Source of the DNA: Collimonas arenae
GTDB lineage: Bacteria > Pseudomonadota > Gammaproteobacteria > Burkholderiales > Burkholderiaceae_D
Direction: 5' to 3'
Length of the DNA stretch: 64,000 nucleotides
Assembly: GCF_000786695.1 (NCBI RefSeq)
Contig: NZ_CP009962.1
Location: 5,208,001-5,272,000, forward strand
Shown in pieces: positions 39,529 through 62,038 of the stretch. A model generated the notes under the pieces. It was not told where the DNA came from. It did no database searches and worked only from the letters and a program-made list of their open reading frames with translations. Every line of letters starts with the position of its first letter. Within the stretch, counting starts at the first letter, position 1. A program made the position numbers and the translations under genes.

Positions 39529-39690
39529 AGTGTGATGCTTCGCAAATGATGAAACCCCATAAGCGCTGCCTTTTTGCGCCAAGTGTCGTTGCAAATCCTC
39601 GCGATAGATACACTATCGCTCCGGTTCGCGCCTAGCCTGACACAAAAATTCACCACTTCTGGGGCTCCACCATTCACGAAGTACCACACT
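39529..39690 (-). repeat. Structured repeat copy A (mreB-mreC spacer)
   Basis: This fills most of the 328-bp spacer. Read on the minus strand it begins AGTGTGGTACTTCGTGAATG and ends with a complementary arm ending GCATCACACT; the arms pair over about 50 nt. The core CAGGCTAGGCGCG is followed by the hairpin GCGATAG-TGTAT-CTATCGC and GAGGAT. It lies 76 bp after mreB and 90 bp before mreC, with its core in the same direction as the operon. It shares core and layout with the four other copies in the window. An 83-codon frame across it is not thought to be a gene. Confidence 0.8.
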
Positions 39691-39766
39691 GTGCACCGAC
39701 CCGGTTGCCGTTACCCACCCTCACGATCAAGCAAAAGAGGTTGGGTAAGCGTCGCATCAGCCTGGA

Positions 39767-40810
39767 TTACTCGTAGGAAAAGATCGAACCCAGCTTGTCC
39801 ATCCGTTCCAGCGCCATGCCGGAGCCGCGCACCACGCAGGTCAGCGGGTCTTCGGCTACGATCACAGGCAAACCGGTTTCTTCCATCAGCAGGCGGTCCA
39901 GATCGCGCAGCAACGCGCCACCGCCGGTCAGCATCATGCCTTTTTCAGCGATATCGGCGCCGAGTTCCGGCGGCGTCTGTTCCAGCGCGTTCTTGACGGC
40001 TGAGACAATGTTGTTAAGCGGATCAGTCAATGCTTCCAGGATTTCATTGCTGGAGATGGTGAACGAACGCGGGATGCCTTCCGACAGGTTGCGTCCCTTG
40101 ACTTCCATCTCGCGCACTTCCGAACCAGGGAAAGCGGAACCGATTTCCTTCTTGATCGCTTCGGCAGTCTGTTCGCCGATCAGCATGCCGTAGTTGCGGC
40201 GGATGTAGTTGACGATGGCTTCGTCGAATTTGTCGCCGCCGACCCGTACCGAGCCTTTGTAGACCATGCCGCCCAGCGAAATGATGCCGACTTCGGTGGT
40301 GCCGCCGCCGATATCGACCACCATCGAACCGGTCGCATCCGACACCGGCAAGCCGGCGCCGATAGCCGCAGCCATCGGCTCTTCGATCAGGAACACCTGT
40401 GATGCACCAGCGCCCAATGCCGATTCGCGAATTGCACGGCGCTCAACCTGGGTCGAGCCGCAAGGTACGCAGATAATGATGCGTGGCGACGGTTTGAACA
40501 GCTTGGTGTCATGCACCATGCGGATAAACTGCTTGAGCATTTGCTCGGTGACGGTGAAGTCGGCGATCACGCCGTCTTTCATCGGGCGGATCGCCTCGAT
40601 GTTGCCGGGAACCTTGCCCAACATCTGTTTTGCTTCACGGCCAACAGCCTGAATTGTCTTCTTGCCATTCGGGCCGCCTTGCTGGCGAATCGCAACAACC
40701 GACGGCTCGTCCAGGACAATGCCTTTATCGCGTACATAAATCAGCGTATTCGCGGTACCCAGATCAATCGCCAGGTCATTTGAAAAGTAGCTGCGTAAAA
40801 ATCCAAACAT
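39767..40810 (-). CDS. mreB: Rod shape-determining protein MreB
   Basis: 347 aa actin homolog. AIDLGTANTLIYVRDKGIVL is phosphate loop 1, MVVDIGGGTTEVGIISLGG phosphate loop 2, and LTGGGALLRDLDRLL the adenosine motif. MreB filaments organise lateral wall synthesis at the inner membrane. The ATG at 40810 (MFGFLRSYFSNDLAIDL) fits the family; one four codons upstream is less likely. Divergent from gatC. Confidence 0.97.
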   Translation of the reverse strand: MFGFLRSYFSNDLAIDLGTANTLIYVRDKGIVLDEPSVVAIRQQGGPNGKKTIQAVGREAKQMLGKVPGNIEAIRPMKDGVIADFTVTEQMLKQFIRMVHDTKLFKPSPRIIICVPCGSTQVERRAIRESALGAGASQVFLIEEPMAAAIGAGLPVSDATGSMVVDIGGGTTEVGIISLGGMVYKGSVRVGGDKFDEAIVNYIRRNYGMLIGEQTAEAIKKEIGSAFPGSEVREMEVKGRNLSEGIPRSFTISSNEILEALTDPLNNIVSAVKNALEQTPPELGADIAEKGMMLTGGGALLRDLDRLLMEETGLPVIVAEDPLTCVVRGSGMALERMDKLGSIFSYE

Positions 40811-41057
40811 GAATTGTTCCAATGCGCAACAATGATGCGCTTAAACGTTTTTTAGGGGGGTGTCTAGTATCCCGCGCATGGTAAAGATCTATTACCTGCC
40901 GCATGGACGCAACATTCTACCTTATAATTTGACTCAACTTAGGGCGTATAGCGCTCAAAATGCTTGCTTTTTACAAAAATCCGAGAAGTTTTTTGCAAGC
41001 AAAGCCTTTATTTTTTAACCACACTTGCAGCCGCGCCTCGAAGCGCGAACGAAAATC

Positions 41058-41360
41058 ATGTCATTAGCCCTTTCCGACGTTAAGCGCATTGCCAATTTAG
41101 CACGCCTTGAACTCACCGAAGACCAGGCCGCTTCCACGCTGGACAAGCTCAACGGTATTTTTTCCCTGGTGGAACAGATGCGCGCGGTAGACACCACCGG
41201 CATCGAACCGCTGAGCCACCCGATTGCAGCGATTCGCCAGGATCTTTCCTTGCGTTTGCGCGACGATGAAGTGACCGAGCCGAATCGGCGCGAGGAGTAT
41301 CAAAAAGTCGCTCCGGCAACCGAAGATGGCCTGTATCTGGTGCCTAAGGTAATCGAATAA
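41058..41360 (+). CDS. gatC: Asp-tRNA(Asn)/Glu-tRNA(Gln) amidotransferase subunit C
   Basis: 100 aa from the ATG at 41058; an upstream ATG at 41025 gives an extra 11 residues unlike the family. LSDVKRIANLARLELTEDQ and LSHPIAAIRQDLSLRLRDDE are typical GatC. It stabilises GatA and helps form the GatCAB complex, which converts Glu-tRNA(Gln) or Asp-tRNA(Asn) to the amide. Confidence 0.95.
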   Translation: MSLALSDVKRIANLARLELTEDQAASTLDKLNGIFSLVEQMRAVDTTGIEPLSHPIAAIRQDLSLRLRDDEVTEPNRREEYQKVAPATEDGLYLVPKVIE

Positions 41361-41451
41361 ATCATTTCGCGCTTGCTTGCACCGATGTGCAAGCGACTGA
41401 TGGCCCGAAATCTGCAGGCCTGTTCCGCAAAGTTAATCGTTAAAAGTACTC

Positions 41452-60844: not shown

Positions 60845-60928
60845 TCACACACTCCATTTGCCATCGCGACCGTCGGCTAGCGAAGGTAACCCTGACAGCC
60901 GACCACATTCTTTAGGAATACGCTCTCT

Positions 60929-61669
60929 ATGTCTTCACTACGCTTTGGTAAGCACCCGCCGAAACATGATTACCGCACGCTACGCCTGAAGAATTACCTC
61001 GGCGCCGCACTGGCAGCGCCGCCTGCCGCCTACGATGTGCTAGCCAACGTTTATCAGAAACTAGGCGTATCCGACCCGGCCCAACTGTTTCCCATGGACG
61101 GCAACGATACGCTGGGCGACTGCACGATTGCCGCGCTTGCCCATGCAATCACGACCTATAACGGCCTGATCGGCACACAGAAGATTCCCACCAAGCAGGC
61201 AGTGGTGAAACTGTACATGCATCTGACCGGCGGAGTGGACTCGGGACTGAGCGAACTCGACGTACTGAATTACTGGCGCAAGACTGCCGTCTCCGGCGAA
61301 AAAATATTCGCTTATACCAGCATCGATGTAAAAAACCATACCCATATCCAGCAAGCGATTCAACTGTTCGGCGGCGTCTATCTGGGCTTCCAGGTGCAGG
61401 AAAACTGCCAGCAGGAATTCAATGCGCACCAGCCCTGGACCCCGGGCAAGCTCACCAACGACGGCCATGCGGTCTATGCAGTGGCGTATGACGCAACCGG
61501 CGTCACGGTACTGACCTGGGGCAGTACGCAAAAAGCCACTTGGGACTGGTGGGATGCCTGTGTCGACGAGGCTTACGCCATCTTGCCGGCAGAGGCCAGC
61601 AACGCCGACTTTGCGCCCAGTTTCGATTTTGCGCAATTGCAGGCTGATCTGGCGAATGTCGCAAACTGA
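60929..61669 (+). CDS. Papain-like (C1-fold) protein of unknown function
   Basis: 246 aa. GNDTLGDCTIAALAHAI places a Cys at the start of a helix as in papain-like enzymes; TNDGHAVYAVAYD supplies a His and LTWGSTQKATWDWW a polar/aromatic third-site block, the C-H-N order of the C1 clan. There is no signal peptide; the N-terminus (MSSLRFGKHPPKHDYRTLRL) resembles a short pro-like stretch. I recognise no named family. Whether it is an active peptidase is inference. Confidence 0.65.
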   Translation: MSSLRFGKHPPKHDYRTLRLKNYLGAALAAPPAAYDVLANVYQKLGVSDPAQLFPMDGNDTLGDCTIAALAHAITTYNGLIGTQKIPTKQAVVKLYMHLTGGVDSGLSELDVLNYWRKTAVSGEKIFAYTSIDVKNHTHIQQAIQLFGGVYLGFQVQENCQQEFNAHQPWTPGKLTNDGHAVYAVAYDATGVTVLTWGSTQKATWDWWDACVDEAYAILPAEASNADFAPSFDFAQLQADLANVAN

Positions 61670-61683
61670 TTTACGCTACGACA

Positions 61684-61750
61684 CAGCATATTTTTATGCT
61701 GACAAGTACGAAGTGCACTCTAGTGCGTGCTGACGTGAGGCGCACTAGAG
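61684..61750. repeat. Two inverted repeats after the papain-like gene
   Basis: CAGCATA-TTTT-TATGCTG (61684-61701) is a 7-bp stem. CTCTAGTGCG (61718-61727) and CGCACTAGAG (61741-61750) form a second, perfect 10-bp stem with a 13-nt loop. Either could end the upstream transcript, though no T run follows. Confidence 0.7.
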
Positions 61751-61857
61751 GCCGTGCAGCGAAAACTATGTAATCATCTGTCAAACACGGTCAAGTTTGC
61801 TATCTGCATTTTCGACGCTGCGGCCGAAGTATGAGAGCAGGAGATAAGCATGTATTA

Positions 61858-62038
61858 AGAGGCTGTTGCAAACACACCTGGCGTTGTTGCCCTTGCAGGG
61901 CGCGCCCGGGCTTGCAAGCACGGCCCGTTCCGCAGGCAGACGACAGTGTCGTCTGAAACCCCTGCTACACCCTCCTGACAGTATTACTCGTACTGTCTTC
62001 GTCGGCGCGCCTAGCCAGCTGTGTTTGCAACAGCCTCT
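61858..62038 (-). repeat. Structured repeat copy E
   Basis: 181 bp, inverted relative to copy D and clearly homologous along its whole length. Its arms begin AGAGGCTGTTGCAAACACA, so the AATTAA of copy D is replaced by CACA in one arm and by the matching TGTG in the other. The minus-strand core is GGCTAGGCGCGCCGACGAAG, then CAGTACGAGTAATACTG. It ends 26 bp from the stop of the minus-strand gene at 62065 and fills most of the 395-bp gap from 61670. Confidence 0.93.

Follow-up and report, generated by a model that had tools for sequence, protein, structure and literature searches.

Five intergenic repeats in a 64,000-nucleotide stretch of the Collimonas arenae genome (contig NZ_CP009962.1, positions 5,208,001 to 5,272,000; hereafter the window) raise the question of what kind of element combines a common core with arms that change from copy to copy and still match within the copy. 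The original prediction, made from the letters alone, had offered mobile elements resembling miniature inverted-repeat transposable elements (MITEs) or structured RNA elements, and each of these holds in part, as elements of the type of the fourth copy are mobile and the shared core has a covarying fold. We consider it likely that the repeats are non-autonomous mini-transposons, i.e., MITEs, whose ends stem from insertion sequences (IS) and which carry as a passenger a conserved core of the Correia type that folds on one strand.

Reading the window confirmed all five repeats, at 39529-39690, 47504-47749, 51918-52018, 53578-53760, and 61858-62038 (copies 1 to 5). They are placed between the longer open reading frames (ORFs) of the ORF list, in agreement with the intergenic position that had been proposed, and several shorter ORFs (101-228 aa) that overlap them are presumed to be spurious. 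A known Rfam RNA family was rejected as an identity of the element, as a search at the gathering thresholds gave no match in the window and only tmRNA and tRNA in nine other loci.

The core was analyzed with covariance models. As the training set of the first model, R1, included two Neisseria copies and copy 3, we built two held-out models of 20 sequences each, R2 without Neisseria, Avibacterium, and JH1-16 sequences and R3 without sequences of the host genome. In the 64-kb window, R3 ranked copies 3, 4, 5, and 1 as the top four, with 56.8 bits (E 4e-15), 40.1 bits (E 6e-10), 27.0 bits (E 7.5e-6), and 25.8 bits (E 1.8e-5), respectively; the corresponding R1 scores were 71.7 bits (copy 3 being an R1 training sequence), 44.6 bits, 29.1 bits, and 24.0 bits (E 4.7e-4). 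A common core beyond chance is therewith confirmed in four of the five copies for which it had been claimed. Copy 2 ranked sixth with a weak match (R1 13.9 bits, E 0.4; R3 E 0.17), and its core is weakly supported, mostly by our reading by eye and by its sister copy L057 (L numbers denote loci; R1 18.9 bits, E 0.015). The fifth rank fell to a weak match at 39116-39197 (-) that is none of the five copies and probably due to chance (R3 E 0.11; R1 E 0.9).

The long terminal inverted repeats that had been described for every copy were returned by a repeat finder for copies 2 to 5. For copy 1, no inverted arm pair was returned, and its self-complementarity relies on a fold with 11 G-U among 65 pairs, on one strand (sense -92.7 versus complement -54.1 kcal/mol). 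Copies 4 and 5 are 90% identical and form one sub-family. Sister copies of copy 3 are found, for example, at L194-L196 and L198. Copy 1 has another copy in the host genome (81% identity), and inner parts akin to it occur in Mitsuaria, Diaphorobacter, and Cupriavidus plasmids; a pattern for copy 1 relatives gave 0 matches in viral contigs. Copy 2 contains at 47655-47717 a nested inverted repeat (GTTCAAGCCAAAATG...), which in the sister L057 is changed on both arms with the pairing kept.

The core of about 75 nt has three stems and two internal loops. Stem P1 is separated by the loop (A/U)AGG / CAACG from stem P2, which covaries, and P2 by the loop G(C/A)AGACA / GGCNA from the short stem P3, whose own loop usually has 5 nt. 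Covariation was assessed against shuffles and slides, which are not tree-aware. In the alignment A1, for which we chose 24 of 35 listed sequences from the elements and the host's own copies, 88.1% of the cells were paired versus 66.5 ± 1.2 in shuffles, both-side changes were seen in 122 cells versus 35.3, and the covariation score was 0.574 versus 0.162 ± 0.017. The 11 sequences left out of A1 have an extra insert or another internal layout, and seven of them were re-scored later (L070, L083, L090, L097, L109, L113, and L140). A second alignment of 32 model-aligned matches (24 from model-found and 8 from pattern-found loci), which was fitted to the model and thus leans towards it, had both-side changes in 19 of 22 pairs versus 14.6 ± 1.3 shuffled and in 180 cells versus 49.6, with a score of 0.611 versus 0.161 ± 0.014 and slid controls at 0.091 or below. 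The P3 variants in this alignment were GUAC/GUAC, GUGC/GCAC, GCAC/GUGC, and GUAG/CUAC. In the 39 elements that remained from 121 once redundant ones had been removed, P2 positions 4-7 were paired in 98 of 156 cells, as compared to 63 on average and never more than 78 in 1000 swaps. The loops are near-invariant, with A-G conserved in 29/30 and 30/30, G-A-C-A in 31/31, 29/31, 31/31, and 28/29, and A-C-G in 27/29, 30/30, and 27/30 sequences. The core thus shows covarying helices together with conserved loops, as a structured RNA family does; the covariation that had been proposed as a check is seen in these stems. For the inner stems, the inference of selection on folding holds.

The two strands of the elements are not equivalent. 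In 61 arm pairs, drawn from 132 of 150 elements with an arm score of at least 10 and still containing own and Neisseria types several times, the core strand had more G.T than A.C mismatches (57 vs. 26) and more G.A than T.C mismatches (51 vs. 17), with A.A and T.T balanced (17 vs. 19); some of these alignments extend into flanking DNA, which should be neutral. Within P2, 49 G.A and 0 T.C mismatches were counted in 40 of 63 elements that had at least 5 of 8 pairs, and two T.C cells were found in the P2 of the 39 unselected elements. The sense strand was predicted to fold more stably in 48 of 61 elements (p 1.6e-6), as compared to 28 of 56 flanking controls (p 0.75). The advantage amounted to 38.6 kcal/mol for copy 1 and 2.3-5.6 kcal/mol for copies 2-4. 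This asymmetry supports selection on folding, and it does not tell RNA and single-stranded DNA apart.

For the outer arms, a different picture emerged. In JH1-16 (Neisseriaceae), two elements of the IS5 type, each about 0.86 kb long (L237 and L239), end in GAGCCGCTAACAAAACC, and these ends equal, over 17 nt, both outer arms of the core element L100 in the same genome; the arms of a further element, L111, differ from them by one change per arm. The frames of L237 were assigned to IS5 family transposases, one part above and one just below the curated cut-off. An IS end of Cupriavidus pampae agrees by eye with the arm of L092 in 14 of 18 positions. An IS630-type element of N. elongata (L294, about 0.9 kb), whose transposase parts score below the curated IS630 cut-off (E 1e-25 and 6e-6), resembles at its ends the Correia-type copy L121 of the same genome (left 22/28, reached in 0 of 100,000 shuffles; right 18/28, 7 of 100,000), and the left end without its first six bases still gave 16/22 (5 of 100,000). 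In genome G316, either end of the broken remnant L300, which has a DDE_3 match below the family cut-off, agrees in 23 of 29 positions with a nested short core element. No R1 match at E ≤ 0.01 was found in L237, L239, L293, or L294, and these IS copies therefore lack the core.

Judged by their identity or similarity to IS ends in other hosts, the outer arms are the ends of transposons. The covariation of the arms is therefore by itself no evidence of selection on folding, which had been deduced from it; what stands of that deduction rests on the inner stems and the strand asymmetry. Core elements seem to borrow their ends from at least two transposase families. The core lies inside ends of the IS5 type; the case for IS630-type ends is well supported, and ends of other families are likely. 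With many other bacteria harboring the core inside ends of unrelated transposons, this suggests a folded passenger that changes carriers.

That further copies exist in the genome had been anticipated. In the host genome, where 150 of 3274 candidates were scored, R1 found 124 matches with E ≤ 0.1, and by eye about half of the 30 best are of the GGACTTACGC-armed copy 3 type. A DNA search with copy 4 scored 40 of 129 candidates; these represent 40 places, copy 4 itself included, that are complete or almost complete in length and 86-100% identical, 33 of them at 89% or above. Many copies contain an insert of three hairpins with a counterpart in copy 5, which looks like a second movable module; it is missing from short versions (L035, L038, L040, L042, and L058), and by eye it occurs at a different core position in Cupriavidus metallidurans (L067 1501-1584) and reversed inside L057 (1446-1806). 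At L034 (G000:C1 about 50030-50225), a GGACTG-armed element adjoins a GAGGC-armed one, so that two end types stand together.

Empty sites were sought in relatives with the window segment 51400-54300, which matched 20 of 30 genomes, the own one included. The copy 4 site was empty by alignment in 10 of 11 related loci, where the flanks meet and share precisely the 3 nt TTA. The eleventh, L257, had a poorly aligned left flank; its sequence reads by eye GGTTC TTA GAAGTGG without insert. Read in core orientation, 26 of 33 GAGGC-type copies had perfect duplications (13 TTA/TTA and 13 TAA/TAA), four had no right end by pattern, and three had unequal flanks. Copy 4 thus inserted as a transposon and duplicated 3 bp of its target, and the duplications and empty sites show elements of its type to be mobile mini-elements. 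The flank reading gave no clear 3-bp duplication for GGACTT-type copies. The copy 3 flanks were too diverged for a clean duplication in L253 and L254 and were unaligned in the fetched locus of the other nine relatives. For IS5 and IS630 elements, target-duplication conventions are used here as generally known.

The core itself led to Neisseria. A core pattern derived from the window copies and from Eleftheria and Cupriavidus loci, written before any Neisseria sequence had been seen, was found in at least 112 contig stretches of genome contigs. Among the 80 matches listed, most are from Betaproteobacteria (e.g., Neisseria, Chromobacterium, Vogesella, Janthinobacterium, Undibacterium, Cupriavidus, and Nitrosomonadales), with few Gamma- or Deltaproteobacteria and one Clostridia metagenome-assembled genome (MAG). 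R2 recognized 10 of 10 Neisseria or Avibacterium loci that the pattern had brought in (51.3-65.9 bits, E ≤ 3.2e-13), nine of nine from Neisseria among them (51-66 bits). N. gonorrhoeae L085, which scored 53.8 bits with R2 and 65.4 bits with R1, carries the ends TATAGTGGATTAA that are listed for Correia repeats, as a 26-bp repeat, in the accessible part of PMC5039591. By the held-out models, which also recognize copies 1, 3, 4, and 5 (R3 E < 2e-5) and match copy 2 weakly, at E 0.17, the core of the window is the same as that of the Neisseria Correia elements. The 26-bp repeat with its TA target is absent from the window, where all five copies have other ends. The part of PMC2649163 that was accessible describes Correia repeats as found only in Neisseria, with the mover undetermined. 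Our search of the open-licence literature found neither a description of the core from beyond Neisseria nor one of an IS630 partner for Correia elements, which is no proof of absence as subscription papers were mostly outside this search.

R1 matches were obtained in 65 of 200 genomes sampled from the order and in 37 of 398 from the phylum (both E ≤ 1e-4), as well as in 39 of 274 from the class (E ≤ 1e-3), each count including the own genome and the large runs using stricter filters. Between hosts, the arms are strongly different and match within most copies, a minority of elements having no convincing arm pair. By eye, core variants seemed to track the host rather than the end type, which is suggestive only and, the core being too short for a tree, is not claimed. 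Three side aspects concern the distribution. The core match L074, from the contig with the Clostridia MAG title, lies outside Pseudomonadota by title and could reflect a binning error or transfer; L174 is similar to it in sequence. Eleven viral or prophage contig stretches (L181-L191) contain the core pattern, a possible route of spread. In two hosts, elements (L095 and L225) lie by eye just past an apparent groEL end. The features of the window are compiled in the following table.

Table. Positions of the repeat copies, their flanks, and the additional insert within the window
Feature	Position	Strand	Description
Copy 1	39529..39690	-	AGTGTG-armed sub-family; core match 39561-39655 (-)
Copy 2	47503..47750	+	Arms 47503-47531 / 47722-47750 (29 nt, 100%); CTAG at both ends; core about 47539-47647 (weak)
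Copy 3	51919..52017 (refined ends)	-	GGACTTACGC-armed, minimal core; arms 25 nt, 84%
Left target-site duplication TTA, copy 4	53576..53578	.	Single TTA at empty sites
Copy 4	53579..53759 (refined ends)	+	GAGGCTGTTGC-armed, core plus extra hairpin insert; arms 31 nt, 94%
Extra hairpin insert ("module B") within copy 4	53647..53728	+	Boundaries by eye; missing in short copies, e.g., L035, L040
Right target-site duplication TTA, copy 4	53760..53762	.	From empty-site comparison
Left TAA flank, copy 5	61856..61858	.	Apparent target duplication, read from sequence
Copy 5	61859..62037 (refined ends)	-	Second window member of the copy 4 sub-family; arms 30 nt, 90%
Right TAA flank, copy 5	62038..62040	.	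Apparent target duplication, read from sequence

In the mechanism that we propose, the outer arms would serve as terminal inverted repeats of an IS, and a transposase supplied in trans would move the element. The core would be a passenger that outlasts its carriers and swaps one for another, with selection maintaining its folding on one strand. By analogy to Correia elements, it most likely acts as RNA that is read through from neighboring promoters or promoters in the ends, and a folded hairpin processed by RNase III, as in Correia transcripts, would make an insertion tolerable or even useful. RNA is preferred here over single-stranded DNA because RNase III processing has been reported for Correia transcripts (PMC2649163, PMC2229807, and the 2024 MITE review PMC10969869).

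Several results weigh against this account. A resident DDE_Tnp_1 transposase with matching ends was rejected, as no such ends were found in the host genome, whose two DDE_Tnp_1 matches (one with a stop, one short) have no matching end pair, or among 28 DDE_Tnp_1 loci of the genus, which gave no partner and, in L267, just one end that has two mismatches. As the partner search in genome and genus covered DDE_Tnp_1 only, we infer the mover of copies 4 and 5. Among 18 DDE_Tnp_1 loci of ten other genomes or records, 2 had identical ends (both in the same genome), 1 had similar ends, and 15 had none. TATAG-like ends were the best repeat in 3 of 30 DDE_3 loci from nine genomes (L293, L294, and L300), and the right end of L294, compared to L121 without the first six bases, is weak (12/22, 926 of 100,000 shuffles). 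In A1, the number of pairs with both-side changes was 15 versus 12.5 shuffled, with 19 of 500 shuffles as high. P2 alone had no significant excess of G.T over A.C (11 vs. 6, p 0.33; 40 elements), and copy 5 is equally stable on both strands. A weaker objection, to a role in mRNA, comes from the gene orientation of 48 distinct copies in the host genome (++15, --11, -+9, +-9, 3 inside a gene, 1 incomplete), which has no gene-direction bias; this test used a simple ORF scorer trained on the window, for which 48 of about 124 copies were usable. The strand bias relative to genes that had been expected was therefore not found, an mRNA-linked element was rejected, and the claim that each core is oriented like at least one neighboring gene, which agrees with the ORF list, carries little information. 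Finally, a modest bias relative to replication (48 sense strands leading vs. 76 lagging, p 0.015) fits single-stranded DNA equally well.

Indeed, single-stranded DNA could be the form in which the fold matters, for example as a hairpin that helps copying, excision, or targeting when replication exposes its strand. The sense-strand asymmetry fits DNA as well as RNA, and the replication bias and the absent gene-direction bias are also in line with this idea. We nevertheless regard it as unlikely, as both the TTA/TAA duplications and the IS-type ends are signs of a DDE transposase that works on double strands, and the replication bias is weak and from one genome only: it was p 0.027 for the best 53 matches (18 vs. 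35) and p 0.24 for the rest (30 vs. 41), and depending on the choice of the terminus p ranged from 0.0008, obtained with a mid-genome terminus, to 0.059. Two landmarks defined the replication frame: ORFs that by eye look like dnaA and dnaN, close to where the contig begins, and a dif-like site at 2.867 Mb, close to the peak of the GC skew. Near the terminus (G000:C1 2.80-2.96 Mb), eight matches all lie on the + strand.

Marginally less probable, in our estimation, are ordinary MITE families, in which the arms covary as different IS have different inverted ends and the core reflects functionless common ancestry. This would account for outer arms that equal or resemble IS ends and for the ordinary movement seen at the copy 4 site, but not for covariation of P2 and P3, neither of which is an IS end, with loops almost fixed, for the stability bias towards the sense strand, or for G.A without T.C in P2. 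A host-selected regulatory RNA in untranslated regions, with mobility as a secondary trait, is improbable: as much as the covarying fold, the conserved loops, and the reports that RNase III and IHF affect Correia elements (PMC2649163, accessible part) would suit it, the near-balance of gene orientations (++ vs. --) and the lack of copy 4 from its site in 11 related loci speak against it. We largely dismiss template-switch repair of near-palindromes as the process that maintains arm complementarity in place of selection, since, despite the long and in many copies nearly perfect arms, repair would erase both the strand asymmetry of arm mismatches and the G.A mismatch near the inner arm end that recurs in several hosts (in Neisseria, this G.A may derive from IS630-type ends, which also show it), and the own copies L043 and L044 have unmatched hybrid arms.

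The reading as mini-transposons with a folded passenger means that the Correia core is present in about one in three genomes sampled from the order, sometimes inside the ends of unrelated transposases. Two questions become testable: which transposase moves Correia elements, with L294 and less clearly L293 as candidates, and why the internal part of a mini-transposon, which is normally disposable, is kept across a phylum. A broader view, which we put forward tentatively and hold to be somewhat less probable than its negation, is that the core is a selfish module, folded as RNA (or as single-stranded DNA) and spread across Pseudomonadota, that repeatedly acquires the ends of resident transposases while selection on its fold maintains it. 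Correia elements would then be its branch in Neisseria, with an IS630-type transposase as their carrier.

REPIN/RAYT elements and integron attC sites are also conserved folded single strands with variable parts; copy 4 differs from them by its DDE-type target duplication. IS5- and IS630-family elements share equal or similar ends with the arms of core elements, and the copies L237, L239, L293, and L294 differ in lacking the core. ERIC/RU-1 of enterobacteria, a small element with terminal inverted repeats and a stable fold, and RUP of Streptococcus pneumoniae, a MITE of about 107 bp whose ends match a resident IS630 element, can be likened by description only, as given in the accessible part of PMC2229807, where one type of ends is described for RUP. 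The closest likeness is to the Correia elements (also named CREE or NEMIS), which have the same core and, as far as the sources were accessible, about 105 bp, many copies, and longer forms with internal inserts. The window copies differ from them in the host, which is not Neisseria, in the flanks, which are a 3-bp TWA for copies 4 and 5 as compared to TA for Correia, and in the ends, which are GAGGCTGTTGC, GGACTTACGC, TAGGGCCTGTTG, and AGTGTG and not of the Correia type.

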